From Mesodorylaimus sp. YZB2_4 (lineage: Eukaryota; Nematoda; Enoplea; Dorylaimida; Dorylaimidae), in NCBI GenBank assembly GCA_030248295.1, contig JASANH010000499.1:310001-374000 (forward strand): a DNA stretch of 64,000 nucleotides, read 5' to 3'. Made by a program: the position numbers and the translations under genes. The notes beneath the pieces are model-generated. The model was not told the origin of the DNA. It was given only the letters and a program-made list of their open reading frames with translations, and did no database searches. Of this stretch, positions 19,542 to 54,576 are shown piece by piece. How positions within the stretch are numbered: the stretch's first letter is position 1; every line of letters starts with the position of its first letter.

Positions 19542-19574
19542 GATTTCGACCGAAAACAGAAAGTGACTGTGCAG

Positions 19575-26950: not shown

Positions 26951-27373
26951 CTAACGCACGAAGACGCATTGAATAGGCGAGAAATAGCAGTTGATAAAAG
27001 TGTTACTCTTCGTACGTAAAACGACTTTATTTTGCGATCCATCGGTTCCTTTCGGTTTCAGGATTGCGTGTTTGTAAATTCGTGGTACATTGAGCTGGCG
27101 CTTGCTTCGATCTGGCGTGAACCACCTTCGCGTGGGCGATGAATCCGACCTAAAACAGTTAGTCGCCATTGCAGAAACGGCCAATCAAAGTAGTTGAAAA
27201 CGCTATTTTAAGCACACAATGGCAAAATCCATCGCCTCGCTTGTCTTTGGCAATTTCTCTATGATATACCGTACTTACTGATGGTCATTTTTCTGAGCTG
27301 GGGCTGCGCTGCTAAGATCCGATGCCAGTAAACTAAAGATTAATACCATGGCAACCAGAGAAGGAGAGGGCAT
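26951..27373 (-). CDS. AstC: allatostatin-C-like neuropeptide precursor, copy A
   Basis: Two coding exons: 27373-27279 and 27149-26951, with a GTAAGT donor, TTTTAG acceptor and a phase-2 intron of 129 bases. The 97-residue product has a signal peptide (hydrophobic core about 6-18, Ala-rich cleavage region 21-26), dibasic sites RR 39-40 and KR 48-49, and a conserved carboxy-terminal block ending NCYFSPIQCVFVR. The cysteines at 86 and 93 enclose six residues (YFSPIQ). This spacing and the C-Y-F-x-P-I-x-C pattern match arthropod allatostatin C, where the ring is C-YFNPIS-C and lies at the precursor end. It is secreted and probably processed in neurons. Conservation extends about 40 residues before the ring, unusual for AstC, so a longer mature peptide is possible. 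Family assignment rests on the ring motif and precursor layout. Confidence 0.75.
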
Positions 27374-27522
27374 TTCAGTGCAAGGAGTATCAACTTAGTT
27401 GTGCCCAATAAAATAGCAATCAAAAATAGAGTGAAATCTTATCCCTCAAGTGATTGACTGGATAACGCGCACGTTTCTGGCCACCTGACTGAATAATGGG
27501 AGATGCGCCGCATCGCAGAAGA

Positions 27523-27530
27523 CTTTTATA
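27523..27530 (-). promoter_or_regulatory. TATA box of precursor copy A
   Basis: TATAAAAG on the minus strand, 150 bases upstream of the ATG. All five precursor genes have a TATA box at a matching distance. Confidence 0.7.
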
Positions 27531-27559
27531 TCCAGCGTCGCCCAGGCAGTTCCTCTAAC

Positions 27560-28010
27560 GAGAGTGGGCGCAAGCACGATTAGGCAATATGAGAGGAACG
27601 AATTTCTCTAATTTAATCGCACTTCCTCGGTGGATCCCGGTGCTAATCGGGTTCGTGACAGGAACAGTGAATGGCGCAGCCACATGCCAATTATACCCAC
27701 CTACGTGCTCTTGGTTACATTGATCAAATGCCCTGAACGAGTGAGTCAGTAGCATCAAAACAGGAGCGCTGTAATTATTAGAACGTGAGATTCCCAGTTC
27801 CGAACGACATGGGCTTGATTAATCAAATTAGTTTGTCACAAAGTCGCCAACCCCTGCAATTTGTTCGTTCCATCGGCTAATTCCTCTCTGATTACTGGTC
27901 TTCCTCGTTTTCTGTCACGTGCTGCTACAAGTGCCAGGATCAAGCAGTCACGCATTGTATCTGCTGTCGTCTTCCGCAATGTCGGGAACGGCCAGGTCAC
28001 GCGAAGGTGC
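27560..28010 (-). promoter_or_regulatory. conserved upstream module of copy A
   Basis: Shares ordered words with the other precursor flanks: GGTGCTAATCGGG, ACCCACCTAC, ATCAAAACAGGA, a CACGTG E-box at 27916-27921 (543 bases from the ATG) and GGATCAAGCAGTCACGCATT beyond it. Presence at all copies suggests a shared expression programme. Confidence 0.65.
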
Positions 28011-30668
28011 TGGTAGTCAGTGATGTCAGTCGTAGTGCCTTCAATTTACTGTGTGAATACCTGATAGGTGTACATATGTAGATCTTTATCTGAAGCAGGA
28101 CTGCCATTCATTACCATTTATTTATGAAGTCGATGCCCTCCAAAATCGATACCGTTCGTGATAGTCCGAGAACACACACGCCGCCTTTCAACGAGAAGAA
28201 TGTTCATGTGTAAATATAATAAGTACGGGTGATATGCATAATTGTGTATAAGAGAAAAAATATAGCTTGTTCAGCATCTTCTCTGACATCGCAGTGACCT
28301 TGGCGCCAGTTGACCATGGCGGCTCCGAGATATCTCGAGCCAAATTTGGTGAAGTGGACGTCCTTTTGGCCGCACTTCCACCTCTTCATCCACTTGCTGT
28401 CAGTTCGCTATTCGCTTATTACTCTTATCAAAAACATTTTTCGGCGCACTCACAAGGGAGAGGACATAGAAAAAAGAGCGAGACCAATCATTCAGTGTCT
28501 AAGAAACTACAAGAAGGATGTGTCTTATAAAAGTGTCATATGAGCCCATGGTCTAATATCAGATGGAATAACAATAGTATTCCACTTCTGTCCATTGTCC
28601 GCTTACCCCCACACTCCAGGGTGAGGTGGGCATTCTTCATGGATGCCCCCTAAAATAAGGAGTTCGCCGCCGCAAAAAAAACAAACGCGAATTATGCGAA
28701 GCTTTTCCTTCTGGTTTAGGAAACTGCGTGTGAAGTTGTTGCGATGATTCATAACAAACCACTGCAAAATCTTCCTTTCGGTTAGAAAAACACCTCAAAT
28801 TCCACCTTAACTTTTGTATTTTTCCCCGAGTGGTCACTTAGATAAGTGCCCCCTGCAATGAGGTTCACTTACATACAAAACATGGGCTTCTGTCGGTGGC
28901 ACCGTGAGGACGAAAGCGATGGGACATAGTGGTCGTTAGTCGATACTCCCGATACTTGACTCATTGCATGGGGCTAAATTGATTAGTGACGGTGCAACAA
29001 TTCTGTTTGATCACAATTTTTGGGGTGGCTGGGCTGACCTTTTCGTTGTCTGATCATAGATGTTTTTCGAGATAATAGTACTTTTTCCAACCCTAATTTG
29101 GGTTAGAAATTCAGCAGAGATACAAGAAATTCGTCGTCTATTCCCTCCTGAGCTGACACAAATTTCGTACAAAGAAGGTTGCCACGTTCTGCTCTGTCAC
29201 TGTATGTAGCCTACTGCGCATAGTGTGTTCCAGAGTGGCTGGGCACAGGCAACTAACGTAACTATTGATAGGCAGGGGGTTTTCACACTCCATTGCCGGT
29301 TGTGCTGGTGCTGTAATGTGCCGGTTGTGCCAGCAAAAAAACAACATTCGAGTTATTTTCTGGTGGTAAACGGGCTCAATTTCCTCAACAAATATTCTTT
29401 TCTACAGAGAATGTACAGTAGATCGCGAGTAGATTTTTCAAAAACTTTAGGCTTAGAAATCAAAACAAGCCAACTAATCCACCAAACTAAAGTAAAAAAT
29501 TCAACAAAACTGAACAGAAAGGAACACTCGTCTCGTCTCGGCCAGTACGTATAATTTTAACGGAGGGTAACTACGGCTAACAGAAACAGCACTTACGCGC
29601 ACCGCACGGCTAATAAAAGTATCCCGCCTGCTGGCGGTATGCGTTAAAACCAGTTTTTCGTGCACAAAGAATTAATTAGCTCGAATCTTAAAATCCCACC
29701 CTTAAAAGAACAGTTCTCGCCATGAGAGCTTTCAGAAAAACCAACTCTTTTGTCTTTTGTCTTTTGTCGTCGTCGTCGGCGTCGTCGTCTTCCGTCGTCA
29801 TATCTGGAACAGCAAAACGTACATTTTGAATCTCGAGGCCGGCTAAGCCATTTCCAACAAAGTTTCGCACGATTATTGGCCGTGACAAACATAGCTCACC
29901 AAAAAAATTTTGTGCATTTTTGTTGACTTCTTGTCTAGTTATGGACGAGCAAAGTTGTCCGCTTAACATTGCGCGTCTGTGTGGCTGGGCTGAACAGGCA
30001 GCTACTGTGCCTGTTAAAATACGTTTATTGGGTACTTTACGATGAAAATCAGTACAGTCAGTAAAGCTTAAGACTTCTGTGCAGGGGTCGTCTTTACTAG
30101 GAAATCATCTGCCCCCCAGATCTTCTTCTGGAATGCAGAAAATCACGTATATGACAGCAAAATCTCACTTCAGCTTCGTTTTCCCATTAGGTCAGAGATG
30201 CGAGAGCAGAAAGTTAATGAGCGACCCCCCCCCCCCCCCAAGCATCCAGCAACTATGAGGTTGTCACGGTACACGCTGTGATTCATATTCATGGACGGTC
30301 AAGTTAAGCATGATAATGGATCTTTGAAACAGTCATTAAAATTTGTAAGTTCCGACGCATGAATACATTGCAGAGGCGTGTGTAGAAAGGTAGCAGTTTT
30401 TCCAGTTTTGGTGCGGAGCGAACTCGTCAAAGTCGGCAAACACTCGTCCATAGCTCTCTCCAAATTACGAGCAAGCACTACGCCCATGTTTTCATTGAAA
30501 TTATTACCCATCTAAAGCTGCTTTAGTATGTTTGCCGAAACCGGCCATCAATATCTCCAAAAAAAGTGGTTTTTGTGGAAAGCATACGAACATTTCTCAG
30601 TTAGGTGTGTCATTGTTGAACCGTTCAAATTCCACGAGTTGTATGTCGGCTGAAAAAGGGAAAGTGCG
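28011..30668. other. no gene recognised
   Basis: About 2.6 kb without a supported gene. Includes a CGTCGTCGTC patch near 29767-29800 and a C run at 30226-30239. Confidence 0.4.
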
Positions 30669-31536
30669 ATGTGGATACAGTCAGTGATCTTTGTAACTGT
30701 GATTGGCGGATATTTGTCTTCTGGAAAGAAAACTGGTGAGAATTCTGAGTCGCGAGTTGGCCTCTGAGAAGTGCCCATATGTTCATACCTTAAAGCGGTG
30801 TGAGGCCCTGTTTGTGTTGTGTGACTTATCCATACAGTAAGGTCACAGTCTAAATATGACAGAGTAGAAATTAAGAATGATGATTGAAAAATGAGGTACA
30901 AAGTTGTGGAATGTCCAACCTCGAATCTATCTAACTTTATGGAACAAGAGGGTTCATCAAATTTTATGCGCCGCCGACGGAAAATGGCTTGAGAAAATAA
31001 GCGGCAGATGGCAGAAACCTACACAATATCTCAAGCTGAGCAGCCGAAGTGAAATATGTCTGTTTTCAGAATATTCTGTTCGCGTCCGTCGCGGTGACGA
31101 TCTTGTACTAAGCGGCGGGTCTGGTTTCAATTTGCCATTCTTGAATCAAATCGCTAATAAATCCCAGTCGCCTATTTTAAGCTCTCTTTTCTCAAATACG
31201 GGCATCGGCCAACAAACGGGAGCAGCCATAAATTTTGGCAATAATCAGCCGAGAGGAATCTTCGGACAGGAGACCAGCGTTTTGGGATTATTCAATCAAC
31301 AGAAAGGTATCGGCGGTGGCGTCGATCAGCAAGGGCGTATTGGTGGCGAATGGGGAAATAATGTGGGCATCCTCAATAATTTATTCGGGTTCGGCAAACA
31401 AGGCCAGGCTAAAGTGGATTTACAAAACGGCAATGCCCACATTACAGAAAACGCTGGCCTAAGCCCACTCTTCCAGTCCAGCAGGGGTTTCAGTATTGAC
31501 TGGAGTAATTTGGCGGAGACGTTGAAAAATGGTTGA
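30669..31536 (+). CDS. small secreted Gly/Asn/Gln-rich protein, unrecognised
   Basis: Two-exon model: 30669-30735 and 31070-31536. The donor is G|GTGAGA, the acceptor TTTTCAG, and phase 1 agrees on both sides. The 177-residue product starts with a hydrophobic signal peptide of about 19 residues (MWIQSVIFVTVIGGYLSSG), followed by a basic VRVRR site that a furin-like protease could cut. The rest is rich in Gly, Asn, Gln and Phe, with repeating hydrophobic patches such as LPFLNQ, LSSLFSN, VLGLFNQQ, ILNNLFGFG and LSPLFQS. It has no cysteine after the signal peptide. It may be an extracellular matrix, silk-like or disordered secreted protein. I recognise no family. The exon pairing is by eye and should be confirmed with transcript data. 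Confidence 0.6.
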
Positions 31537-32594
31537 TTTTTGGCAGTTGCCGTCGAAACCTTTGTAGCTGTGGAAGCAGTGTTTTGCGTCGCAGCAGATG
31601 AATGTTCTTTTGTTAGAGAAAGTTCGCAATTTAAACTGAAAAACTGATAATTTGTTAACGTTGTGTCTTCGCATCGGGATAAAATAGTGTTAACAAAACT
31701 AGGTGCACTGGATTTTACATAATTTCACTTCAACATTTGTTTACGTATACTAAAAGATTTTATGATGATACTGTCTTTCGCTTTTTTGCTGTTTTAGCTC
31801 TAATAAGGTCGTGTTGAATACAAAGTATGACCTTACACTCCGCACAGACACCAGTGTGCGCTTCTTTAGGCATTAACTGTGTAGTAAAAATACCTGGGCG
31901 AAATAGTGCCTCAACCAAGCCAAAGCGTGATTGCCGCCCATGCAGCCGTCCTTAGTGGTTGGGTTAAAACAAAAAACACCGTCAAACATCAGCCTACAAT
32001 TTTTACTGCACAGTCGAATAGTTCCGTGATCTTTTGGGTACGCAGATGCCATACTATCGGCTGGCGCTAGATTCAAATACTATAGGACAAGTTGCGTTGG
32101 GTTTGATCCTTTGTTTTAAAATCAGCAAACTTCCCGTTGGTTTTTTTGCGTCAATGAGGAGAGCAGTTGCTTGACTTTGCAGCTACTGGCTCGGAAATAC
32201 TGTATTTGGTGATTCCTGCCATATTGGCAAATCTTTTCATTGGCCTCAAAAATTCTGACTTATCACAGATATGATGATTCGAAAAATATTGGAGATGTGT
32301 TTCTTCTGTAAGAAGAATATCCGAGGGGTAAATATTTCTTTGTTCTTGTCTGATGCAAAAAATAGTGTGATGCCATGATTCAGCTTAAAATGTGGTTCGC
32401 CTACATTTTCTATGACAGTGATTTGCTATGCAGCATGTTTGTGGAGGTAAAAATCACAGAAGATGGTCTAATCGTAATTCACGGCTAACTAAATTTTTTA
32501 GGTAAAACTAGTGCTCTCGAACCAAATAACTCAAACCAAACTGAAACCGATAGAACTGAGAAGCGAACAAACCAAAACATAACAGAACCGGAGT
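31537..32594. other. no gene recognised
   Basis: Downstream of the secreted-protein gene. A word cluster of AACCAAA/GAACCG type at 32517-32590 resembles other iterated-word debris in the window. Confidence 0.35.
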
Positions 32595-32685
32595 CGTGGC
32601 CCTGGGGGTTAGGGTTTCTGCCCCTCACGCTAGGTGCACACTTAAAAGGGAGGGCTCGACTCCCGCCTCGGCGCAAAATAATTAT
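32595..32685 (+). repeat. SINE family A, head fragment
   Basis: Retains GTGGCCCTGGGGGTTAGG and CCCCTCACGCTAGGTGCAC, with GGGCTCGACTCCC as B-box. The tail is missing. Confidence 0.55.
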
Positions 32686-33462
32686 CAAGTATGTGTTCCT
32701 TAGCCCTTGAGTGCTTGGATATGGATAAGTATGATGCGGCCGTGAGGGTACTGCTTATAACAAAAGCAGCAACTGGAGTAAGCCGACACCGCTAAGCCTC
32801 GCTTGTAGCCCGGATTTTAATGGAAAATTGGATATGGAAGAAGTCCGAACGCCCACTCCTGGCGTAAATGTTTTGCCAAGTCAACTCATTTGTTACGACT
32901 TTCATGCCAGCTTCTTTTCCAGTGCTCTAACAGTATCGTGGACGTTGCAGTAAAGTTGGCACTGAAAACTTCACGCCGTCGAAAGAATTGGCGAGTTTCC
33001 ATGATCATCATGGCATTAGTCTCCTACGCATTTTAGACCAAGTACGCTCGTATGGTGGGTAGATTGGGAATTTGGATGCTGCATAAAGGCGAATACTTAC
33101 TTGAAAACGCATCCTATACAAAGCTATATATTGGGCAATCAACTTGTAGAATACACGCTTGCTTTCAGGGTCTTTCAATCCGCTATTCAAACATTAACTA
33201 GCTCAAACTAGTTGCAACTCATAGTTATTCAGCTTTCGCAGGCTAGTTTACACTGGCATAACGGCATTTTTTCCAAGCATAATACTTTGAAAATATGTAG
33301 AACTTCTAGCATTTTTAAATCGATGAGAAGGAAGAGCATACGGTACAGACCAAAGTTCTAAAAGTTTGTTACGAGTACGAGAATGCACATGCACATCGAC
33401 TTCATTTTACTATCCCTTCCATGTAAGCGCAAGTTAGCACCCGTTGCAATCCTCTCCATCAG
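32686..33462. other. no gene recognised
   Basis: Intergenic DNA downstream of precursor copy B; no supported feature. Confidence 0.35.
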
Positions 33463-33906
33463 TCACCTACGCACAAATACGCATTGTATCGGCGAGAAAT
33501 AGCAGTTGATAAAAGTGTTACTCTTCATACGCAACACGATCTTCTTCTGCGATCCATCGGATTCTTTTGACTTCAGGATCACTTGTCTGTAAATACGAGG
33601 TGTACTGGCCAGGCGCTTGTCAAAACTCGGCAGGAGCCGCTGAGGATCGTGAGGCTTGAGTGATGAAGTCGATCTAAAAATTTAGAGAAACGGTCAAAAA
33701 AGTAAGTGTTGATTGCAGAATCAACTATCTGAATGGTGCGGTGGCTTTTGCTTTTGTAATCTATGTGCACAAGACTGTGGAGATTTGTCTTGGATCTATG
33801 CTTACCTAAAATCAACTTCTTGAACTGGTATTGCGCTGCTCATGACTGGCAGCAGTAAGCTGACAAGTAGTGCCAGTAATATGACAGACAGAGAAGTAGA
33901 ATGCAT
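33463..33906 (-). CDS. AstC: allatostatin-C-like neuropeptide precursor, copy B
   Basis: Exons 33906-33806 and 33673-33463; the intron is in the same phase and position as in copy A, with a GTAAGC donor. The 103-residue precursor has a strong signal peptide (core about 7-20), KR at 53-54 and the carboxy-terminal ring NCYFSPIQCVFVRR with cysteines at 91 and 98. An additional arginine ends the protein, giving a dibasic terminus. The region between signal peptide and KR is unlike the other copies, whereas everything after it is conserved, which indicates selection on the carboxy-terminal peptide. The coding sequence is intact. It probably arose by tandem duplication, since orientation and flanks match copies A, C and D. 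Confidence 0.75.
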
Positions 33907-34058
33907 TTTAGCGCAGGTATAGGTGCAATAACGATGGTTCCAATAGGGCATTGATATGAAAAGGAGTGACTGGAACTCGAGCTGTCAATGATTAGCTGGA
34001 TGACGGGCAAAACTCTGGAACTCCAACGCAACAATGCGAGTGCAGCATCATCAAAGAA

Positions 34059-34066
34059 CTTTTATA
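34059..34066 (-). promoter_or_regulatory. TATA box of precursor copy B
   Basis: TATAAAAG on the minus strand about 155 bases upstream of the ATG. Confidence 0.7.
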
Positions 34067-34099
34067 CCAGGCATTCGCCCACACATTCCCTCTGACGAG

Positions 34100-34600
34100 A
34101 GTGGGCACAAAAGATTCTTTGATATGAGAGAAGCTTGCTCCAAGATAACCACTCCTTTTGCGCGAATGCCGGTGTTAATTGGGTCAAATGGCAGAAGCAG
34201 CGAAGGGTGAAGTCAGCTGCCGATCATACCCACCTACCTTCCCCCGGAGACAGGAAATAATTTCTTGTACTAGACTTACATAGATTGAGCGGCTAATCAC
34301 ATCAAAACTGGAGCAATATAAGTACCGGGGACGTGAGCCAGTTGTTCTTATCCATCCAAGTTCCATCGGCACACCCTCATCAGGTTTGTACCGTCGCTCA
34401 CTTCTACTTTTTGCCTGTTTGTCCTCGGCATTTCGATCAAACTTTGTCCCCTTCCCGCTATTTATCTGGCACGTGCGAGGAACAACGGTACCAGGATCAG
34501 GCAGTCACACATTTCGAAACTGGTGCCACCTTCTGCTTTGTCTAGAACAGACATAAACTCATGCTAATATGGTCGTAGCCTCAGATATGTCATAGTCGTA
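34100..34600 (-). promoter_or_regulatory. conserved upstream module of copy B
   Basis: Contains GGTGTTAATTGGG, ATCATACCCACCTACC, ATCAAAACTGGAGC, CACGTG at 34470-34475 (564 bases from the ATG) and GGATCAGGCAGTCACACATT followed by CGAAACTGGTGCCA. These words recur in order at the other copies. Confidence 0.65.
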
Positions 34601-34689
34601 GCCAGCCTCCCATCCGCGACTACTGCTTGCTGTACATGGCACGCCAGCCTATCCGTATTTGACCTCGTATGCTCCACCCATCTACATGT

Positions 34690-34790
34690 TCAAGTTGTAC
34701 CAAATCACCAAACGCAGGCATGCGCACTCGAAACTAGACACAGGATGGGACATACCAGACACAGAATGATTAGCCGGGACATTGATATAT
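34690..34790 (-). repeat. SINE family A, tail fragment
   Basis: Words AAATCACCAAACGC and ATGCGCACTCGA followed by ACAGAATGATTAGCCGG match the tail of the unit at 12780-12948. The head is missing. Confidence 0.5.
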
Positions 34791-35014
34791 TTCCGAGTCT
34801 TTGCGGATATTTGTCTTCGGGGAAGAAAAAGGGCAGGACCTCACCCGCCGAGGTGGTCTCTCAAAGTTTGGGGTTTCTTGTGTTTGCGCCTTTCAAAAGC
34901 AGTCTAAGCAGGTTACGCGTAGGTCTAACACTCAATGCATGTCCAACAAAGGCAATGAGCAGCCAGAGTGTAGGTAGGGTCAGATAGAATAATCACTGGA
35001 GGTAGAATTCCCCT

Positions 35015-41300: not shown

Positions 41301-43340
41301 GAGTCAGAAGGCTGACCTTCGCGCGTTGATTTTGAAATATAGCGACGTTTTCGCGACTTCGGAAATTGATTTGGGGTGTACTCCGCTCCTTGAGCACACA
41401 ATCCCCACTGACGACCATCCGCCGACTTTCCAGGCCCCATATAGAATTCCCTTGGCTTTCAAAATCGAGGTTAAGCGGCAACTCGATCAGTGGATGGATC
41501 ATGGCATTATTGAGGAGTCCTCAAGTCCTTGGAATAGTCCATTGTTAGTAATGAAAAAGAAATCGGGTGACTTACGGCTGTGTGTTGATCTATGAAAGGT
41601 CAACGCATCCACGCAACCAACCCCTTATCAGTTACCGCGCATTGACGAAATTTTGGGCTCTCTTGGTAAGACGCAATTTTTCTCCACATTGGATTTGGCA
41701 GGAGCTTAACTCCAAATGCCTCTGAAGCAGGAAAATAGGCCTAAGACTGCGTTCTTAACACCGATGGAGCGTTTTCAGTTCCGCCGTATGTCATACGGAC
41801 TCCCGCTGGCTCCATTTTCCTTTCAGCTGTTGATGGAACGCGCGTTAAGAGGCATGATAGGGGAATCTTGCCACGTTTTCCTCGACGACATTTTAGTTGC
41901 TTCGGATACTTTCGAGAGCCGCTGGATCCATTTGGAGCAAGCTTTCCAGCGTCTGGATCTGGCCAATCTGAAGCTGAAGCCAGCCGAATGCCAGCTCGCG
42001 CTAGCGAAAGTGCCATTTTTCGGCCACATTATTTCTCGAAATGGCTTAGAACCCGACCCTGAAAAAGTTCGAGCAGTCGCCAAGCATCCCGCTCCCCAAA
42101 ATGTCGCACAGCTGCGCAGTTTCCTTGGTTTAGTCAACTACTATAGACGATTTATCCCTTACATGGCGTCTACTGCGGAATCGCTATACCGCCTTTTCAA
42201 ACCGTCCGTTCGTTTTGAGTGAAGTCCAAGGAAACGAGCTGCGTTTGAAAGTCTACGTTTAAAGTTGACTTCGTTCGACGTCCTACTTCATCCAGATTTT
42301 TCGAGAGGGTTTCTCCTGCAGACCGACGCATCCAAAACAGGACTAGGAGCCGTCCTAGCCCAGTCCACATCGCAAGGCGACAGACCAATTGCCTATGTAA
42401 GCCGGACATTGACAGCAGCAAAGAAAAATTATTCGGCCATTAAACTTGAGTGTTTGGCGATCGTTTGGGCCCTAAAACACTTTCGGCTCTACATCGGCTC
42501 TACATGTATGGTCAACGGATCATAGTTTTGTCTGACCACCAACCGCTGCGGTATGTGCTCTCCGCGACTAGTCTCACGGGGCGTTTAGCTCGATGGAGCA
42601 TGGCCATCCAAGGGTTTGACCTCTATCGTCGTGGACAAAGCAACTAGAATGCAGATGCAGATGAGAGCACCCGTTTGTGCGATCCACGTTCCGCCCTCTT
42701 CTTCTCCTATAATCGAAGGCAACGTGATGTTGGCAGAGAAGCAAAAAACCGATCCTTAGTTTGGTCCGGTGTTCGCCTTCCTGACGGAGGATACCTTGCC
42801 TATGGGGGAGGACAAGGACGAGGTCGAATCGAAAATTCGTCAAACTGTCGTTTTGAGTGACCTGTACTCCTTGCAAGATGGTGTTCTCCATTACCATCCA
42901 AAACATGGGAAGGAGCTCACCCCACGGCTAGCCCTCCCTATATCCTTAGTACAGGAGGTGTTGGAATGCTGTTGGAATGCTGTCACAACATATCTTGCTG
43001 GCGCAAGAAACGCAAAAAGCGACTGTAGACAAGCACACCCAAGATCCATCAAGGTGATCTGGTTATGGTGTACGTCCCAGGAGTAGGAAAAGGGAAGTCA
43101 CCGGAATTGGCGCATTTGTGTAAGGGGCCCTTCGGAGTAAAGGAGGTCAAATTGCCCTAAGTAAAAGTTGAGATGAAAAGTTTATGGCACAGAAAGAACA
43201 GTCCAAGTTTGGTTTTGGTGAACATCGACCGATTGAAAAAGTTCAAAGGTTCTTATCCAACGGAGGAGTCTAGACCCTCTGGTGCGGCACCCTACAACCC
43301 TTTGAGCCGCGCTAAACAGAATTTGCTAAAAGAGTAATGG
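38360..43340 (+). mobile_element. decayed Ty3/gypsy retroelement with envelope-like segment before pol
   Basis: In order on the plus strand: a Gln/Ser-rich nucleocapsid-like stretch (38378-38580); a signal-peptide-like hydrophobic stretch (about 38610-38670) opening a glycoprotein-like region with sequons; a membrane segment near 40240-40310; an aspartic protease region with VDTE where VDTG is expected (about 40605); reverse transcriptase (about 41380-42220) with LVMKKKSGDLRLCVD and FLDDILVA as the catalytic box; RNase H (42265-42650); and the start of integrase (about 42800-42960). In-frame stops occur at 41593, near 41708, at 42220 and at 42645, with a frameshift in RNase H. The integrase core is missing: sequence jumps near 42980 to the carboxy-terminal part. 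No 5' LTR was recognised. Dead element. Confidence 0.85.
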
Positions 43341-44129
43341 TGGCTGACGTTAGCGGATGAGTTGAAGCAAGAGAGGGAGCAGATGTAACGTGATGACGAT
43401 CTGCGTCGAAGTCGCAACAGTTACTTATCAGCGATTATGAAGTGTTGTGAGTAATTTTGTCTGGCATTTGGGGCATGCTATTTATAATCGGTGGCAGAAT
43501 AGGTTTCATGACGGAGGTCTGGTAACCTTCGTTTAGGATTTGATTTACTAGGATTTTGCATTGTATTTTACGTTCGTATTGTCTGGTCACGGAATGTCTT
43601 CAATGAGTGCATGGACTAGAAAATGGCAAACCGAATTTATATGTTATTGGTTAAATGTGCCGCGACATTTATTTTCGAATCGTGATGCAAATAAGGTCGC
43701 TATCTAAGCCATGGTATGTTTGAATTTCGTGTCGGATGGCTTATAAGTAAACGGTGAGTAGAAGTCGGAAGTCGTCGCTTTAGTAGCGCTGTTACACATG
43801 CATAGCCTGTTAGAACAATTTGTAGAGAGACTATGAGTTGCACAATACTGGTTCGTCGAGAAGACTTTTTCTAGACGGCTGTAAAAATTGGTGGACAATA
43901 GTCTGCTTAGCATTTGCTTGATGCCTGTTATTTGTTATACGCAACAGAATCCAGTGCCATTCTATGGAAGATCAGATGATATTTTGGTCTTCATTATCTT
44001 TGGTGCACGAGCAACGATTACTTCGAGTCCGTGTGAGCAAGCAATACTCCCTGGACGTCTTCGTGACTTCCTCCGATTAACACGACGCCGCTCCCATTTC
44101 TTGCCCAACGGCCTGATCAAAGTAAGTTT

Positions 44130-44560
44130 CATAGCACGTGAAAGGAAACGGGATAGGACGAATAATTGGATCCGAATATGTCGACGGAAGGAGGCATATT
44201 TATTGTGTCAGCGACGGTGCATGTCGTAAATTGGACGTCTGAGAACTCTTGCTCACACCCAAAGACTATAGCTTTCCTGCTTTAACGTCCCGACGAGCTA
44301 ATTCTGAGCATCTGGCACAACGAATGATTTCCTGTCTCGAGAGCACGTGCAGTGGGTGTGTTCGATTGGTAGGTGACCCCACCCTTCAATGCTTACGCCA
44401 GTTGCCCAATTATATTGCCTCACCCAATTAGCACCGGCATGTACCGAGGAGGTGCGCAGTAATTACATTGGGGCCTTTCGCTTGTCACATATTCGAGGAT
44501 GCTACCTGCTCTTTGTTTACAGTCGTCTGAAGAAATGTGTTGGCGTTCGCCGGCTATAAA
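44130..44560 (+). promoter_or_regulatory. upstream module and TATA box of copy E
   Basis: CACGTG at 44135-44140 (597 bases from the ATG), then CAAAACTGG/CACCC-type words in reverse orientation relative to copies A-C, CCAATTAGCACCGGCAT, and TATAAAA at 44555-44561, about 180 bases before the ATG. The layout mirrors copy D. Confidence 0.65.
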
Positions 44561-44736
44561 ACCGAGTGATAGCGCTACGAAATCAGCATTCTTACCCGTA
44601 CATCGGAGATCCAAATCTGTCATTCACGCATAAGATCTTCGTTCAACCAATCATCGCCAGATCAAGTCTTGCTCACCTCCGTCTCAATTCAGTCCGAATC
44701 AATCAAGTTTTGTCACAATTCTGTTGAAATTCTAGA

Positions 44737-45171
44737 ATGAGCCCATCTTTCTTTGTCGTGCTCTTGGCAGTCGTCGTTGGCTTATTGGCCCTTTATGTGA
44801 GCACTGCAGCGCCGCCTCATGAACTGGAGTACCAGTAAGTATCGGCATCTCAGAAGTGTGAGCCAGATAAGCGACATGGCTAGCGAAGAGACTCCAATGC
44901 ATCCCACATTGCAAGCCCACAAAACTAGGTGTAAACCGATTCAACTCTGTCCTGAATATCAAGACTTTGTTGTAATTTTAGATCAGCTTTGTCACCAAAA
45001 CTGACGCAAAATCGGAACAGGCGCATGGCGAACGCATCACGTACTTACAGACACCTTGTTGTCTTGAGGTCAGATGGAAACGATAAATCGAAAAAGGTCG
45101 TTTTGCGATGGAAGAGCAGCACTTTTATCAACTGCTTTTTTTCGCCAATTCAATGCGTCCATGTGCGTTAG
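44737..45171 (+). CDS. AstC: allatostatin-C-like neuropeptide precursor, copy E
   Basis: Exons 44737-44834 and 44982-45171, GTAAGT donor, TTTTAG acceptor, phase-2 intron of 147 bases. The 95-residue precursor has a signal peptide (core about 5-19), RR at 46-47 and the carboxy-terminal ring NCFFSPIQCVHVR with cysteines at 84 and 91. Compared with copies A-C the first ring residue is Phe instead of Tyr, and His replaces Phe/Tyr after the second cysteine. It is the only plus-strand member, because it sits in the left arm of the inverted repeat. It differs from copy D at five residues. Intact, with promoter. Confidence 0.75.
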
Positions 45172-45410
45172 ACGATAAGTAGCTGGCGTTACTTCCCAAA
45201 CATGAGCGTTCACTTTAGAATTCGCTAGCCAAACACCGTAAGACAAGTCGTTTGAACTTGTGGCTTTGTGGCTTTGTGAGCTATATTTGAGCATGAGATT
45301 TTTCGTATCGATTCAATGTTATAGCACGAATTCCACAGCACAGTATGGTATGTTGTGTGCACCACCAAACGTATGTTCTGCCAGTGCACGGTCAAAAATA
45401 GCGAAGGCGA

Positions 45411-46552: not shown

Positions 46553-46692
46553 GACCTGGCTCGTGGCTTGGCTGGGCGTGGTACATTTACGGGCAAGTGG
46601 TTGACTCGCGCCCTAATAAATCATTTCAAAATGAGCTTTTGAAAAATGTGTCCCCCCCCCACCCTCGAGTGTTTATCCCTTCGTTTGGTGTT
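46553..46692 (+). repeat. SINE family A, internally deleted copy
   Basis: Retains the head start CTCGTGGCTTGGCTGGG, TTTACGGGCAAGTGGTTGACTC and the tail words TAAATCATTTC and CACCCTCGAGTG, interrupted by a C run at about 46652-46660. The anticodon-arm region is missing. Confidence 0.6.
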
Positions 46693-47262
46693 GATAGTGA
46701 ACATGAGGACGGGCACCCTATCTTCAATTCCTGATCTATCACCCATCGCATAATTGTCTACCCAAAGTGAATGAGTAAGGATCAACTAAGAATGAGTGAG
46801 GGTCAAATAAAAACACTGATACCTACTTGGAGGAGTAGGGAAACAAATACAAATAAAGAAACCAATTAATCCCTAGTCACTCTACTTTGTCAAATATACT
46901 GTAGTTTGCCTTTCTTGAAATGGCACCGGGCAGAATATCGTAGTGAAAAGATAAGAAATTAGAACAGGCGATAGTTTTACTTGCAAACGCGTCCTGCATC
47001 ACAAATGGTGAATATGATGCAACTTGCACTTCGCATCCTCGAAGTTTTTAACATAAGACACTTTTCAAATACATTTCACACCTACTTCAAAGTGGCCACC
47101 TCATGGAGCTTTTAAAAAGCTTCAACAAACCAGTTTACACTGGCACAACAGACAGTTTTCCACACATCACACACTGACTTACAAACCTTCTAGGCGAGAG
47201 AAAGAAGCACGCAAATTTTAAAAGCAAAAATCGCAGGGCGACTTTTGTTTTCTGCACCTCAC

Positions 47263-47695
47263 CTAGCGCACATAGACGCATTGGATTGGCGAAAAATAGC
47301 AGTTGATAAAAGTGCTGCTTTTCCAACGCAGAACGACCTTGTGTTTCGACCCATCGTTTCCATTCGGCTTTATGATGACGAGGTGTCGGTAATTGCGTGA
47401 TGCGCGCTTGTTTCGATTTATCTCAAGCTTGGGTGTCAAAGTGGACCTAAGAGGAGTTAATGGCTGACAGTAGTTTGAACCCGGCCAGCGTTGATCTTAG
47501 AGCTGCCATTTTGACATCGCTACTGCATGTTCAAGCTCACTAGGCTCATATGCTTTTGCTATGATAGACTGTCGGTCCCGAACAGACTGGTACTTACTTG
47601 GAGTTTTCCTTCTGCATTGGCATTGCGCTGCTTATATCCATCACCAATAAGCTGGCAATCACTGCCAAGAACATGATAAGCGAAGAAGCATTCAT
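47263..47695 (-). CDS. AstC: allatostatin-C-like neuropeptide precursor, copy C
   Basis: Exons 47695-47598 and 47446-47263, GTAAGT donor and phase-2 intron of 151 bases. The 93-residue precursor has a signal peptide (core about 5-19), KR at 46-47 and the ring NCYFSPIQCVYVR, cysteines 82 and 89. The first half differs from the paralogues while the block after KR is conserved. It sits inside the spacer of the inverted repeat, in tandem orientation with A, B and D. Sequence after KR is intermediate between A/B (Tyr in the ring) and D/E (RWKSSTF before the ring), which suggests that D/E derive from a C-like ancestor. Confidence 0.75.
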
Positions 47696-47844
47696 TATAG
47701 AGCTGGAGTAGAGGTGCGATAAAACTTGACTGAATGCCGTATAAAGTAAGAAGGATAGGACAGAAAATTAATCACTTGATGATTAGCTGAATGACGAGCT
47801 TTGGATACCCGACGCAACAATGTGGAGAGGGCAGGATCTCGGGC

Positions 47845-48300
47845 GATTTATACCGACCGAACGCCTACTCGTGTCTCTGGACGGCTGAGAGCAAAGAAAG
47901 GATAGTCGCTCCAGGAATATGTGAGAAGCGGAGAGCTCGAGTGTGATTACGCAATGTGCGCGGATACAGGTGCATTGGACCAACTGGTACAAGCATTGAA
48001 GGGTGGGGTCATCTGCTAATTAAACCCACCTACTGCACGCTCTAGAGACTGACACCTATAGTAAGCTCGTGAGCTACATCAAAACAGGAAAACTGTAATC
48101 TTTGGGAACGTGAACAAGAGTTCAGAGACTCAAGTTCCAAACAACAGTGTCGCGTGCTTTGCTAGTTTGTCTTCTTTCGTTTGACCCAGTTATTTGTCCC
48201 CTTTTCTACGTGGCACGTGATCGGAAATCGCACCTTGATCAGGTAGTCAGCGGATGCGAAACGGGTGCGAGTTTCTGCTTTGCCTGAATCAGGCAGGAGT
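47845..48300 (-). promoter_or_regulatory. TATA box and upstream module of copy C
   Basis: TATAAAT at 47846-47852, about 150 bases from the ATG. Further upstream: AACCCACCTACTGCACG, ACATCAAAACAGGAAA, CACGTG at 48214-48219 (519 bases from the ATG) and GATCAGGTAGTCAGCGGATGC. Same order as at copies A and B. Confidence 0.65.
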
Positions 48301-48844
48301 CATGCAATGGCGGAGGTCTTTGTGCATTTTTGTTCATGATTTTCTCACGCGCGGACACAGATATTTTCATCGCAACTTCTGCTTCAAATGTAAAGATTCA
48401 AGTCCTGTTAAATGACACCACACACGCACATCAGCCCCGCGTCAACAGGAATATAAATTGTGTAATAAGGCGACGAAATTTTAATCACTTGTAGGCGACA
48501 TTTCCACAACGCAAATGTGTCTGCAGAAATAATCACAACAAGTGAAGTAACAAGTGAACAGCAAACCATGAAACAATGGCTTACTGCAATTACATGACAA
48601 AGAAAACCGGTATCTTTCCTATTAGCAAAGGGTGAAATGGATATTGTATTTTCAATCAATCTGTTGGGAGTTGGTGATGAGCAACATATTTTTATTTTTG
48701 GCCGTGCGTACAATGAGACGTGGAACAATCAAATGAAAGAAGTATTAATGGACGGTACCTCCCTTCTGTCACAACTGCGCATCGAGTATCCAGATGCCGA
48801 AACCTGGGGGTGTTTTTTCACTTGGTGCAAAACTTGCGAGAGCA

Positions 48845-49400
48845 TTTGGGGCCATCCATAAAGGACGTCCACCCAAGGGCTAGTGGGTGGGGGTCAGCGG
48901 AAAGTAGACGGGAGTGGATGGGGGAGGGGGAGGGGGAGACTGGAGGGGGGAGGGAATTCTCCCCCCTTTGGTTGTTCTCTCCCCGTCTAGACCCCAATTG
49001 AACTTATCCCCCCCCCCCCCCCCCCCCCTATGGAAATCCTCCCCCGGGGACGAACTTGCAATAATTTGACCGCACAAGATCATCAGGTGTGGAAAGTGTG
49101 AAGAATAGTGAAGGATATGAGTACTAGCGTTTTCCTTGCAGAGTCAGATGATGAAGACGAATATATCGTGTATATATTGATTGAATTCGGCTATGAGTAG
49201 CATGAATTTTGGAAGAGAAGTTTTGAAATAAACAAAGTTAGCAGTACTTTTTGGGAAGCTAGTTTCTTTCTGGAATCCGTAAAATGTTTGACTTTTATTC
49301 TCCCCCTCTGGAAATCCTCCCACCCTGGTTATTCTCCCCGTCTGGGACCAATTTGAAAAAATTTCTCCCGCGGGGAGAATTTCGAGGAAATGCGGTAAAA
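48845..49400. repeat. G/C-homopolymer dispersed repeat
   Basis: Begins GGGGCCATCCATAAAGGACG, related to 20136; contains GGGGGAGGGGGAG runs near 48925-48950 and an 18-base C run at 49011-49028. Words TCTCCCC and GGGGAGAA are iterated on both sides, giving foldback potential. Confidence 0.55.
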
Positions 49401-49703
49401 GCTTCTAGTGAAAGGACAATCATAAACTAGGAGTTATCGTGGGTGTCCCTTGATCTTCACTGCAATTGAACAAGCTGTTGAGCTTTGCAACAACTTGACT
49501 GGTTCATTCTCACTAGCAGCAGGAAAGCTGCGGTTTATTTCGATCCTGGTTCGATTATGGTCTGGTCCTGGTTCAGCTGCAAAAGCTGGTTTGCTTGAAC
49601 CTGGCAGAGAGCAGGATCGATCCTTTCTCCCACTCGCTATTGTTCACTGGCGACAGGGTTACATTTGTTCCGTCTTTGGGACGCCAGAGACGATGCTGAG
49701 CAG

Positions 49704-49850
49704 TGCCAGCATCGACCGACTGATCCGACCCTCAGCGTGGATCCCAATCTCGACGCGGCTGATGCTTCAAGACATGAGATATAAAAGAGGTGGCGTCTTT
49801 GGCACTCATCATCAACATCATCACCATGTTTTACTGATACCTGAGACACT
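49704..49850 (+). mobile_element. hAT-like MITE, end fragment
   Basis: GCCAGCATCGACCGACTGATCC followed by GACGCGGCTGATG and GGTGGCGTCTTTGGCACTCA aligns with the left end of the element at 61737-62127. The other terminus is absent. Confidence 0.6.
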
Positions 49851-50381
49851 AGGAGTGAACTCGAGAAGGTACAGACAAGAAAAAAAGAAAAATTTACGTG
49901 TTGCAGATGGAAAAGTTTTCAAAAACACATTTCAGCTATCGCAGATTTAAAACGGTCAAAATTACACAAAGCTATATCCGAATCAATGCTATTCTATAGT
50001 TTTATACCAGAATTAATGAAGCTCTGCTTGAATGATTCTGAGAAATGTTTTGGCATAAAAAACTGGTGTACCTGAGAATTACGATCACTACGCCGGCATA
50101 TATCAGAAACGTGAATAAAACGACTGTTTCAAAAATCATGTAAGCCATGATAGAACTTAAAAAACTAAGAAAGCTTAAGCTGTTTGCGCCTGTTACAGAG
50201 AGAAGTCCACTTGGCGTTTGTCAAGGCATCTTCATACGTAATGGTAAAATTATTTCAAAAAAGCCTAACCGATGGTTACAAAAATCGTGCATTCCATGAT
50301 AATAATTGTAAAATTGGCACAGTTTCTGGCGCTTACGCCTATAAAGAGAGAGCTCCATCCCGCGTGATTCAGCGCAACATC

Positions 50382-51180
50382 TTATGTACTCGTAAAATCA
50401 TTCAAAAAAAGCCTAAGCGCATAAAAATTTGCACGCTCTAACTCCTCGATATCACCTTTTAAAATGGGATTCCAAGCTACTGCTCCATATTCTAAAACTG
50501 ATCGAATACACGACGTATATACGGTGCCAAGGACAGAATTAGAAACATGCCTACCCAATCTACGTCTCAGGGCGCCAATCATAATGTCACATTTGCGAAC
50601 AGCATCAGAAACGTGTTCAGTAAATTTCATATCGCTCGAAAAGGTCACACCCAAATACTTTATCTCAGAGTAAAAGTTCAAATCTTGGCCACATTTGAAG
50701 TACGCTGCATGTTGCCGGTACCAAAGCGAATGATAATCGCTTGGGATTTTGAAATATTGAAGCGCAGACCTGCAGAGTTCACCATTTCCGAAATGAAGTC
50801 AATGCACGGTTGTGCCAAGCTTTCGACAGCATTCAAAGAGGGCGCGGGTACGAGTAAACCAGTGTCATCGGCGTACGCCTGGAGCAAACAATTGGGAAAC
50901 AATCGTGATAATTCCTAGAGCAAGGGATCGATGCATGCGAAGGAAATAGTCGGACCAAGCATACTGCCCTGTGGTACCCCTGATGGAATGACAGTAACCT
51001 CAGAGGTACACTCGCCAATGACTACACGTTGGGATCTATTCGATGAATATGAACCAATCCACCGACTTATTTTGCTTGGAATACGGGAGGCTGATAGTCG
51101 ATCCGAAATAAGTTTGTGGGGCAGCTGATCAAAGGCTTTTTGCAAGTCAAAGAATAGCTGGAAACGATCGAACCAATAAT
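50382..51180 (-). mobile_element. non-LTR retrotransposon (LINE) reverse-transcriptase fragment
   Basis: Minus-strand pieces encode LQKAFDQLPHKLI, then VVIGECTSEVTVIPSGVPQGSMLGP, then a QAYADDTGLL catalytic box and a downstream IKYLGVTFSSDM block followed by an RRRLGRH/SVLEYGAVAW region. These are the successive reverse-transcriptase blocks of Jockey/CR1-type LINEs. Frames change near 50905 and 50680, and both ends are missing. Dead fragment. Confidence 0.85.
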
Positions 51181-51194
51181 TTTTTAAAAGTTTG

Positions 51195-51444
51195 CCACAA
51201 AAAGCTTCAGCTAAGATTTGAAGTCAGTCATCCAATTTTGTTGACTTTTATTAGCATCTTAAAGAAACTACAAAAGGGGTTCGACGCCGAGTACGAGCGA
51301 TTTGTTGGAGGTCACGAACCAGCGCGAAAACGTTCAAGGTACGAAGAAGGTGATCAGCGCATTTTTAACAAGGTGATTGCTTGCGATCGTAATAATTTAG
51401 TTGAGTATGTTCGAGGTTTGTCTCATAATTATCGCATGGAGTGA
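51195..51444 (+). mobile_element. MULE-type transposase, carboxy-terminal fragment
   Basis: A continuous frame ends with HPILLTFISILKKLQKG, a basic GHEPARKRSRYEE segment, DQRIFNKVI and EYVRGLSHN. It resembles the carboxy terminus of FLYWCH/MULE transposases (HPN-W-FI-LK-EQ ... RI ... YL--IA-N). The catalytic part is absent. Confidence 0.55.
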
Positions 51445-51754
51445 TATTGTCGTTTTTTAGCGAGTGCTATCTTTTCTCTTGGACAAGTGCACAAACGTTA
51501 AGGTGTGATCACGAGTGACAATGAAAAAGAAGTTTTAATTGCCATGCGTCGAGTTTTCCCTGACTCTTTCTGCGCTTTTTTACTGCCCTAGCGCCAAGAT
51601 GGCTCGGCACTTAGTTTAGCGGCGCCTATTTGACCAGCGCCTAGTTAGTCTAACGTCCAGTTGGCCGTGACCGGACGTCCGATCACCTCCCGCCTGCTTG
51701 CCTGTCAAAATCCGGCATGAAGTAGACGCGACCAGATACAAACTGGGCGAGACC

Positions 51755-52180
51755 TCAATCTTTTGAGGAGAAATAAGATCCCAATAATACTCTAATCGCC
51801 CCCCCCCCAACGAGCAAGTCCAACTGCATATTCTCAGTGCCATTAGGCAATGAGTCAGCCAAAGGCATAGACTTGTACAACGGACTAGCCAGCTGCTGAG
51901 GCCCGACTGCAGACCACTGCAAGCTACCAGTAATCTGAGGAACGAAATTCGCAGACAACGTGACGAACGAATGGTCTAGCAACTAAACGCGAATGTCGAC
52001 CACTGATGATTCAATTTTCATAGCGGAAACAAAACTAAATGTATTCACTGAAATGCGCTCCTTATCCGTAGCCTTCAAGCCCAACTGCTTCGCTAAAGCT
52101 GCCGAAATATACGACCAGCGACTCCCACCATCCAGAAAAAGCCTAACCTTAGACCAAGTCTTAGCAGTTGGCGGTTCGGT
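51755..52180 (-). mobile_element. BEL/Pao retroelement protease fragment
   Basis: Minus-strand frame KVRLFLDGGSRWSYISAALAK then KQLGLKATDK and, after a stop near 51980, TLSANFVPQITG and LPNGTENMQLDLLVG. This order fits the aspartic-protease-like domain of BEL/Pao polyproteins; the catalytic DSG is DGG. Truncated on both sides. Confidence 0.7.
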
Positions 52181-52539
52181 TGGCAGTTGGTGGTTCGTTT
52201 TCACGAACTAAAGAGGAAATTTCAAATGTGCTGGCTCGGTTTTTATGGTTCAGTACATAAAAGCTGGTTCAGCTCGGTTCAGTAAAAATCGACGATCTTG
52301 TGGTTCGGTTCAGTGATTTGGTCGCTGCCAGCGCGCAAGTTATGTCGTTTCGCCACAAACATTGTTTGAAAATCGAAAACCTAACGGAGACTTTGGTTTG
52401 GTGGCTGCGGACGCACGTAAACGCCTGACTAAGCTTCTTTCTGACAAAACCTTCCAGTCTAAGCTTTAAGAAGCTTACAGGGCAGCGGTCAATGACATTC
52501 TGTAGAAACACAAGTCACTGACTGGCCGACTGAGTGAAA

Positions 52540-53150
52540 AGCATCTTTTATGAGCTGATACTTCTTATGAGCACTCCTCATACTACAGTATGCGTAGGCT
52601 CATTTGAGAAGGATCAGCACTTCTGACGAACGAGTCAGTCGCAAATGCCGGTGCTAATTGAGCCAAGTGATAATTGGACAACTGGTATAAGCATTGAAAG
52701 GTGGGGTCACTCGCCAATCGCACACACCCACGGCACGTGCTCTAGAGACCTAGGAAATCATTCAGTGTGTCAGATGTTCAGAATCAGCTCATCAGGACGT
52801 CAAAACAGGAAAAATATAGTCTTTGGGTGTGAGCAAGACACTCAATTTACGACATGCACCGTCGCTTACACAACAAATGTGCCTCCTTATATCGACATAT
52901 TTGGCTCTAATTATTTTTCCCGTTCCGTTTCTTCTCACGTGCTATCGAACTCTACCTTGATGATCAGGCAGTTCATCAGTTAGGCAAGAAACAGGTGCGG
53001 CATCCTGTTATTCTGAGGAAGCCACATCAAGACGATGGCATTCCAACATCAATGGGAGTCGCCATCTCACAGGACTCATTCTAATCGAACTCGAGCTCCA
53101 AATATAATGGTGATACAAATATCGTCTGATCTTCCATTGAAAAATATATC
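52540..53150 (-). repeat. orphan copy of precursor upstream module (D type)
   Basis: Aligns with 54880-55345 in the same orientation: GGTGCTAATTG, CGCACACACCCAC, CAGGACGTCAAAACAGGAAAA, ACGACATGCACCGTCGCT, a TCACGTGCTAT E-box and a CTGATCTTCCAT end. A TATA-like CATAAAAG lies at about 52548-52555. No precursor exons follow below 52540; BEL/Pao debris and GGTTCGG words lie there instead. Confidence 0.7.
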
Positions 53151-54141
53151 GCGCATCTGAAGTGTAAAACTAAGAGAAAATATCAGATGGATGCTAGCCA
53201 CTTATGTGTCTTAATTTTTATACCTGTCCACAAAAAGTCTCATCGACAGAGCATCAAACGTCCCAATCACAAACCTCCTCTTTCTCTCCTGAGCTCTCTT
53301 CACACCTGTGAGATAATTCAATTAAATCTGGGGACAAGCGCAACAACGTCAAGCAAAATTTCAGGCTGTTTGCAATCCACTATAGCTAATGGTAGAAGCT
53401 AAGCGAGCAGCCCTTGTGGACTTCCTGCAGATCATATCCTGCTCTGTTCAAACACAACACACATTCCCTGAAGTTTAGAATGAGTCAAATTTTTCAATGG
53501 CCTTATATTTCATGTTTTCTCCATTTACTGTAGATATGATTTTTCGTTCAACGTTTTCTAAAATATTGAAGGTGGTATATCACTCACTCCGAAAGGGTGC
53601 GCGTATGGAGCGTTTAGGACATTATTTACAATTACGATGCCCTTCTGAAGTCTTTAGACAATGTTCCCTCAAGTTAAAACTTGCGGCTCGAAGTCGTACC
53701 TTGGTGGCAGGTTTGTTGTGTGTAGGTGATGATGCGTAGTGATTACACAAACACAGTCTTGGTATGGAACTGGCTCCGCTTGGTCATCTGTCTGCTTGCT
53801 GAGTGTGGCTAATCGTGAGTGGATTTGTCGATGGGTACCAGAAGACCACAGCAACCATCTAAGCGCCTTTTAAATATAACCAGCAAACGACACTACTTGA
53901 AAGCTGTTGCGCTATTTTTGACCGTACACTGGCAGAACATACGTTTGGTGGTGCACACAACATACCATACTGTGCTGTGGCATCCGTGCTATAACATTGA
54001 ATCGATACGAAAAATCTCATGCTCAAATATAGCTCACAAAGCCACAAAGCCACAAATTCAAACGACTTGTCTTACGGTGTTTGGCTAGCGAATTCTAAAG
54101 TGAACGCTCATGTTTGGGAAGTAACGCCAGCTATTTATCGT

Positions 54142-54576
54142 CTAACGCACATGGACGCATTGAATTGGCGAAAAAAAGCAGTTGATAAAAGTGCTGCTTT
54201 TCCATCGCAAAACGACCTTTTCCGATTTATCGTTTCCATCTGACCTCAAGACAACAAGGTGTCTGTAAGTACGTGATGCGTTCGCCATGCGCCTGCTCCG
54301 ATTTTGCGTCAGTTTTGGTGACAAAGCTGATCTAAAATTACAAGAAAGTCTTGATATTCAGGACAGAGTTGAATCAGTTTACGCCTGGTTTTGTGGGCTT
54401 GCAATGTGGGATGCATTGGAGTCTCTTCGCTAGCCATGTCGCTTATCTGGCTCACACTTCTGAGATGCCGATACTTACTGGTACTCCAGTTCATGAGCCG
54501 GCGCTGCACTGCTCACATAAAAGGCCAATAAGCCAACGACGACTGCCAAGAGCACGACAAAGAAAGATGGGCTCAT
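54142..54576 (-). CDS. AstC: allatostatin-C-like neuropeptide precursor, copy D
   Basis: Exons 54576-54479 and 54331-54142, GTAAGT donor, TTTTAG acceptor, phase-2 intron of 147 bases. The 95-residue precursor has a signal peptide core about 5-19, RR at 46-47 and the ring NCFFSPIQCVHVR, cysteines 84 and 91. It is the inverted-repeat partner of copy E, with substitutions in the signal-peptide region (Phe19 for Leu, Ser23 for Thr, Ala27 for Pro) and two in the pro-region/peptide (Ser45 for Asn, Glu70 for Lys). Intact, with TATA box and upstream module. Confidence 0.75.

Follow-up and report, generated by a model that had tools for sequence, protein, structure and literature searches.

Five ring-peptide genes in the window

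The 64-kb stretch of genomic DNA analyzed here, which we refer to as the window, contains five genes (A to E, between positions 26951 and 54576; Table 1) predicted to encode secreted precursors, each ending in a small two-cysteine ring that resembles allatostatin C (AstC). A six-frame scan of the window returned exactly five frames with six residues between two cysteines and a (Y/F)F(S/N)P core; all five have the spacing and the FxP core, and in each the ring reads C-(Y/F)FSPIQ-C at the C-terminal end. The gene models are DNA-level predictions from a mechanical gene modeller that judges signal peptides by hydropathy. For all five genes, the best-scoring model consists of a signal-peptide exon, a phase-2 GT..AG intron of 129 to 151 bp, and a ring exon that stops four or five residues past the ring. 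The introns begin with a GTAAG donor and end in a TTTAG-type acceptor, which in gene D is TCTTAG; in some of the genes, alternative acceptors score only slightly below the best. A dibasic KR or RR pair stands 36 to 38 residues ahead of the ring in every case. The preliminary description of this locus had proposed five two-exon genes sharing just these elements, and at the level of sequence each of them is confirmed.

Table 1. Features of the window. Coordinates are window positions; dibasic sites are given in residues relative to the ring.
Feature	Position	Strand	Details
Gene A	26951-27373	-	exon 1 27279-27373 (signal peptide); phase-2 intron 129 bp; exon 2 26951-27149
Gene A ring	26966-26989	-	CYFSPIQC; tail VFVR; KR at -38
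Gene B	33463-33906	-	exon 1 33806-33906; phase-2 intron 132 bp; exon 2 33463-33673
Gene B ring	33481-33504	-	CYFSPIQC; tail VFVRR; KR at -38
Gene C	44737-45171	+	exon 1 44737-44834; phase-2 intron 147 bp; exon 2 44982-45171
Gene C ring	45133-45156	+	CFFSPIQC; tail VHVR; RR at -38
Gene D	47263-47695	-	exon 1 47598-47695; phase-2 intron 151 bp; exon 2 47263-47446
Gene D ring	47278-47301	-	CYFSPIQC; tail VYVR; KR at -36
Gene E	54142-54576	-	exon 1 54479-54576; phase-2 intron 147 bp; exon 2 54142-54331
Gene E ring	54157-54180	-	CFFSPIQC; tail VHVR; dibasic at -38; recent copy of gene C
Inverted segmental duplication, left arm	42985-45403		contains gene C; 2.42 kb, 98.1% identity
Inverted segmental duplication, right arm	53910-56327		contains gene E; 2.42 kb, 98.1% identity
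Decayed copy of C/E upstream region	52645-53141		no recognizable gene body; 76% identity over whole stretch, 80-81% over part
Retroelement remains	41710-42222	+	reverse transcriptase (Pfam RVT_1); left of gene C
Integrase-like frame	56255-56653	-	judged by eye, without Pfam match; overlaps outer end of inverted duplication
TATAAA, gene A	27525-27530	-	157 bp ahead of ATG
TATAAA, gene B	34061-34066	-
TATAAA, gene C	44555-44560	+
TATAAA, gene D	47847-47852	-
TATAAA, gene E	54753-54758	-
30-bp upstream element, gene A	27618-27647	-	ATTAGCACCGGNATNNACCGAGGANGTGCG
30-bp upstream element, gene C	44427-44456	+	ATTAGCACCGGNATNNACCGAGGANGTGCG
30-bp upstream element, gene E	54859-54888	-	ATTAGCACCGGNATNNACCGAGGANGTGCG
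Srsx-type receptor cluster	1833-19619		seven-transmembrane; pieces 1833-2792, 5119-6024, ~8000-8979, 14214-15299, 18708-19619
DEG/ENaC (amiloride-sensitive sodium channel) gene	22657-24585	+	one open frame; Pfam ASC, expectation value (E) 3e-16

A family of about 100 genes in a dorylaim-type nematode

The five genes are part of a much larger family. Across the 145-Mb genome (1067 contigs), the DNA pattern C(Y/F)F(S/T)PIQC gave 79 matches against none for a reversed control, protein searches with three different members, cut at E 1, returned 77, 85, and 95, and a wider pattern, C(Y/F)FxP(I/V)xC, gave 112 matches against 7 in the control. The union of all searches comprises 117 loci on 63 contigs, grouped into 69 clusters, the largest of which holds seven. 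These loci are assembly positions that either fit a pattern or reach E 1 or better; some of the matches contain stops, and the weakest members include C1:1987350 (E 0.17) and C11:996683 (E 0.29). Moreover, at least four contig pairs look allelic, with C209/C929, C156/C748, and C1031/C1042 nearly identical and C700/C752 identical in protein. Because of these pairs and the few weak matches, about 110 places is a fair count and about 100 genes a cautious one. The strong local expansion suggested by the preliminary description is thus correct for the five genes in 28 kb, but it is only the local part of the family.

Gene-level counts cover 54 loci of a first union of 104, and 63 of the final 117 loci lie outside them. 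A signal-peptide exon, again judged by hydropathy, was modelled in 51 of the 54 read loci, and the intron is in phase 2 in 49 of these 51; the final modeller has no phase preference built in. When 400 decoy frames were passed through the same modeller, 124 yielded any model and 20 scored at least 14, a score reached by 41 of the 54 real loci. Individual gene models are less certain than the overall pattern.

The host of this family was identified from its mitochondrial COI sequence, which is 81% identical to that of Xiphinema rivesi, 80% to those of Paralongidorus litoralis and Longidorus vineacola, and 76% to that of Xiphinema pachtaicum. Among the best 120 matches, unnamed database sequences reach 84% and named arthropods at most 65%, and a tree built from 47 of the 121 sequences places it with nematode-like rows at full support, without resolution of the genus. 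By COI, the host is a dorylaim-type nematode and not an arthropod, and the arthropod frame in which the genes had initially been placed falls away. The COI gene itself lies at C73:251445-254668, where TGA is read as tryptophan; some 1 kb from it is a partial COI that runs the other way. On other contigs there are many stop-containing COI fragments, representing nuclear copies or an assembly artefact.

A constrained ring and variable tails

Scored with a pattern that demands both cysteines, the proline, and the spacing, 53 distinct genes have F and Q at 98% and an N before the ring at 88%, next to the invariant C, P, and second C that the pattern itself imposes. The tail after the ring is mostly V/L-(Y/H)-V-(R/G) in the same set. 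The FxP core is present in 53 of the 54 read loci (44 of which were found by that pattern), with IxP in the remaining one. In the wider search, which leaves ring positions 4 and 7 free, position 7 is Q in 86 and position 4 is S or T in 92 of the 100 matches listed out of 112. Ten of the read loci were found by protein search alone, and their rings are CYFSPVQC (four), CFFSPVQC (three), and CYFSPNQC, CYFSPLQC, and CYISPTRC (one each).

Ahead of the ring, KR and RR pairs peak at -40 to -31, where they occur in 23 of 47 precursors; counted in ten-residue bins outward from the ring, the frequencies are 4/50, 4/50, 14/50, 23/47, 12/45, 2/34, and 5/9. Selection was examined in 16 pairs hand-chosen as close relatives, of which 12 have a synonymous divergence (dS) over 0.3. 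In all 12, the ratio of nonsynonymous to synonymous divergence (dN/dS) is 0.06 to 0.56, including 0.35 for genes A and B and 0.34 for genes D and C. The introns of these divergent pairs have drifted to identities of 0.42 to 0.64 (0.56 for A/B and 0.42 for D/C), except in C12_1018002/C12_1023739, whose intron is 94% identical. The other four pairs are near-identical and either uninformative or richer in amino-acid than in silent changes (6 vs 1 and 5 vs 1), numbers too small to read.

Within the 12 divergent pairs, dN over the last 45 codons is below that of the rest of the gene in 11, by a wide margin in seven and only slightly in C12_55895/C12_1021895, C156_202941/C156_216415, C40, and C154/C61; the trend is reversed in the C12_1018002 pair, on very few changes. 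Together with the KR/RR peak, this makes the conserved stretch of about 40 residues before the ring, already pointed out in the preliminary description, a real feature of the window's subfamily; the five window domains share 24 invariant columns. Across 31 diverse members, the ring is conserved and the pre-ring stretch hardly so.

AstC-like genes and candidate receptors in the same genome

The genome also contains genes closer to conventional AstC. The wider pattern retrieved six CYFSPVSC rings (two on contig C30, and C40:38767, C118:70550, C205:31104, and C358:16707) and one CYFRPISC ring on C121. The CYFSPVSC ring is one residue away from the CYFSPVQC form of the family. Three of the CYFSPVSC genes were read, with the splice sites of those on C30 and C118 picked by hand. 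The C30 precursor ends in KR followed by IHCYFSPVSCGVGRG and the C118 precursor in KRR followed by IKCYFSPVSCFG, and both genes have an N-terminal intron in phase 0; the C-terminal glycine of the latter could give an amidated end. For C205, the first exon could not be placed. At a distance of 1.1 kb from the AstC-like gene on C118 (69431-70822, ending CYFSPVSCFG) there is another ring-like match, a weak one (E 0.6). A further gene, C6:101219-101284, has a CYFSPLQC ring, a long post-ring tail with further basic sites, and an intron that the mechanical model places in phase 0, probably correctly; it could be a remnant between the AstC-like genes and the PIQ family of the window.

A search with a somatostatin receptor (SSTR)-type query gave 14 matches at E below 1e-23, the best at 4e-35, among the 111 of 473 candidates that were scored. 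SSTR-like receptor genes therefore seem to be present, the best of them on C168, C57, C145, C147, and C474, and an SSTR-like gene, npr-24, is recorded across nematodes, including Trichinella spiralis, in the available excerpt of PMC3524798.

Duplication, upstream sequence, and neighboring genes

Genes C and E form a near-identical pair inside the 2.42-kb inverted duplication and hence represent one recent event; ongoing gene duplication can be seen here. Beside the decayed copy of their upstream region, a tblastn search with the family returned nothing better than E 0.21 (51793-51891), taken as chance. Since the integrase-like frame overlaps the outer end of the duplication, genes C and E and the retroelement remains may have moved together.

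A TATAAA motif lies upstream of all five genes. Across the family, it occurs between -200 and -50 from the ATG in 22 of 50 genes. The corresponding counts are 2 for the reverse strand, 1 for the adjacent interval farther upstream, and a mean of 2.9 for shuffled sequence. This enrichment supports the predicted start codons, with the reservation that the genes are relatives of each other and the counts hence not independent. A 30-bp element is present upstream of three of the five window genes and, allowing up to 7 errors, in none of 35 other upstream regions; as it occurs in only 3 of 40 regions, a role as a family-wide switch was rejected. This test drew on an earlier set of gene models (43 of 54 loci modelled, with a phase-2 bonus in the scoring).

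The remainder of the window includes a DEG/ENaC gene and a cluster of Srsx-type receptors, a type named after nematode chemoreceptors. The Srsx genes and pieces are 73 to 81% identical to each other in DNA, and some of their frames look interrupted.

Discussion

We hold it to be on balance probable that the family consists of secreted cyclic peptides, very numerous and apparently lineage-specific, which would work like AstC and probably derive from it. In such a scheme, the predicted signal peptide would lead the precursor into the regulated secretory route, where a furin- or PC2-type convertase may cut at the KR or RR about 38 residues before the ring, as the peak of such sites suggests. The product would be a peptide of about 40 to 45 residues ending a few residues past the second cysteine, a size that best fits the window's subfamily. 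By analogy with AstC, the two cysteines would then bond to form a ring of eight residues, C-(Y/F)F(S/T)P(I/V)Q-C, as the putative receptor-binding part, acting on AstC/somatostatin-type or related G protein-coupled receptors, and the variable N-terminal tail may tune specificity or stability. Tandem and dispersed gene duplication would have multiplied this ligand to about 100 genes.

The introns bear directly on descent. According to the excerpted text of PMC7536072, an N-terminal intron in phase 0 is common to AstC and somatostatin genes, and the AstC genes of Drosophila and C. elegans have an additional phase-2 intron in the C-terminal part. We infer an ancestral gene with both introns, the first of which survived in the AstC-like genes and the second in the PIQ family.

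Several results weigh against this reading. The phase-0 N-terminal intron of published AstC genes is absent from all five window genes, and 49 of the 51 modelled family genes have phase 2. Phase 0 is instead found in both CYFSPVSC genes that were modelled in this genome, and probably in the CYFSPLQC gene on C6; to explain the mismatch, either reciprocal intron loss or a new founder exon has to be invoked. Among the decoy models, phase 2 likewise outnumbers the other phases (63 of 124, with 33 in phase 1 and 28 in phase 0), though below its share in the real genes. Much of the constancy of the ring among the read loci follows from the search itself, since 44 of the 54 were found by the ring pattern; a fair test is given by the positions that the wider pattern leaves free and by the 10 loci found by protein search alone. 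A basic site ahead of the ring, present in all five window genes, is less regular in the family, with any dibasic pair at -43 to -33 in only 30 of 50 precursors, and KK and RK pairs lack the -40 to -31 peak, being as common at -30 to -21. Short, fast-evolving precursors often fail homology searches, and here a collection of 5.8 billion proteins, searched to E 10 with one precursor (3 candidates) and with a 31-row alignment (92 candidates), gave no match. Pfam had nothing above cut-off for two precursors, and a Protein Data Bank sequence search with one ring fragment found no match.

The receptor searches weigh on the same side. With the SSTR query, an expansion on the scale of the peptides was not seen (111 of 473 candidates scored, receptor types not resolved), and receptor co-expansion was set aside on what is a weak test. 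Srsx genes occur in the window and near some other loci, yet a pairing of the two families is not convincing, as scored Srsx genes (148 of 639 candidates) lie within 10, 30, and 60 kb of 2, 7, and 8 of the 69 peptide clusters, compared with 1.7, 4.4, and 8% of the genome. There are two possibilities: a small set of receptors shared among many ligands, or receptors that belong to another class.

Dorylaims feed with a stylet, and the peptides could instead be directed outward, as hormone mimics released through it into prey or hosts and acting on the AstC receptors of invertebrate prey. Some 100 genes in dispersed and tandem copies with TATA-type promoters would suit such a use, for which the cone snail consomatins provide a precedent of weaponized somatostatin mimics in the excerpts of PMC11336141 and PMC12962067. 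We nevertheless consider it unlikely, since selection is purifying in all 12 chosen divergent pairs, dN is lower at the C-terminal end in 11 of them, and the ring retains Q and S/T at positions that the search did not fix. In venom families, it is usually the signal peptide that is preserved while the mature part diversifies, the reverse of the pattern in this family. A GH12 cellulase, cloned from the plant-feeding Xiphinema index (PMC5664137, in the part available), gave no match in the genome, which speaks only against plant feeding of the Xiphinema index type. Because the ring is held fixed and not diversified, a neurohormone or between-worm signal is favored; tails that vary around an unchanging ring point to a signal under constraint, whether internal or between worms, more than to a weapon that diversifies.

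The ring might also be convergent, the family being an unrelated group of nematode secreted peptides that perhaps does not act on AstC receptors. In its favor, the intron is in phase 2 in place of phase 0, no similarity is seen outside the ring region, and the protein database returned no relatives. We find this account doubtful, since CYFSPIQC and CYFSPVQC agree with the CYFSPVSC of this genome in 6 to 7 of their 8 residues, and the spacing, the C-terminal place, and the layout of dibasic site then ring are all common to both groups. Either intron could have persisted from a gene with both phases, as described for C. elegans and Drosophila AstC in the excerpt of PMC7536072. That the 40-residue stretch is instead a small one-disulphide protein (antimicrobial or mating-related, for example) that the ring only closes is very unlikely: the 24 invariant columns, the slower last 45 codons, and the four short strands suggested by AlphaFold2 for the five window domains would fit, but that model shows nothing at a mean predicted local distance difference test score of 47.6 and a predicted template modelling score of 0.19, and the pre-ring stretch, unlike the ring, is hardly conserved across diverse members. 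A transposable-element artefact was set aside, as the ring genes are under coding constraint, though one pair sits by retroelement remains.

Returning to descent from AstC, a fuller scenario is possible and more tentative. The family would be a dorylaim AstC-like repertoire of about 100 genes, the largest known to us, that kept the phase-2 intron when it split from the animal's own AstC and then radiated as cyclic hormones of about 40 residues, with one ring and many tails, serving as an internal or between-worm code or as prey-directed mimics.

Neuropeptide ligand families are normally small and old, and AstC normally comes from few genes; the preliminary description puts most arthropods at one to three AstC-type genes, and crustaceans have three AstC types in the excerpted text of PMC11959706. 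If the reading is true, a single-ring hormone type of about 100 genes would be an unusual test case of a motif kept while its carrier diversifies, and of whether receptors follow a ligand expansion. It also suggests that early-branching nematodes, among them the order Dorylaimida with its plant-feeding virus vectors, hold peptide systems missed by catalogues based on C. elegans. In open-licence PubMed Central, no nematode paper on the PIQC motif, and no paper on an expanded AstC-like nematode family, was among the matches listed.

Comparison with known systems

As far as sequence says, the family is AstC-like, and membership of AstC is not established. It resembles the AstC (PISCF)/somatostatin type in its predicted secreted precursor, in its one ring at the C-terminal end, where the cysteines enclose six residues and the core is FxP, and in the dibasic site before the ring. 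It differs in having a single phase-2 intron after the signal-peptide region where AstC has an N-terminal phase-0 intron, in a ring ending PIQC instead of PISCF (as given in the excerpt of PMC11959706), in a short tail, which in the window's subfamily mostly reads V-x-V-R, in the long conserved pre-ring stretch of that subfamily, and in its roughly 100 genes. The AstC-like identity originally proposed thus stands for the ring, the secreted precursor, and the expansion, but because the phase-0 N-terminal intron is absent, we do not file the PIQ family outright as AstC.

The AstC-type gene of C. elegans, compared by its description in the available part of PMC7536072, is likewise a nematode gene with an FxP ring and a phase-2 intron beside the phase-0 one. 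Its phase-2 intron lies in the C-terminal part, whereas that of the family lies near residue 30 and without a phase-0 partner. The cone snail consomatins, as presented in the excerpt of PMC11336141, share with the family the occurrence of secreted somatostatin-like peptides beyond the animal's own hormone; they are mollusc venom peptides, whereas release outside the body is hypothetical for the present family.

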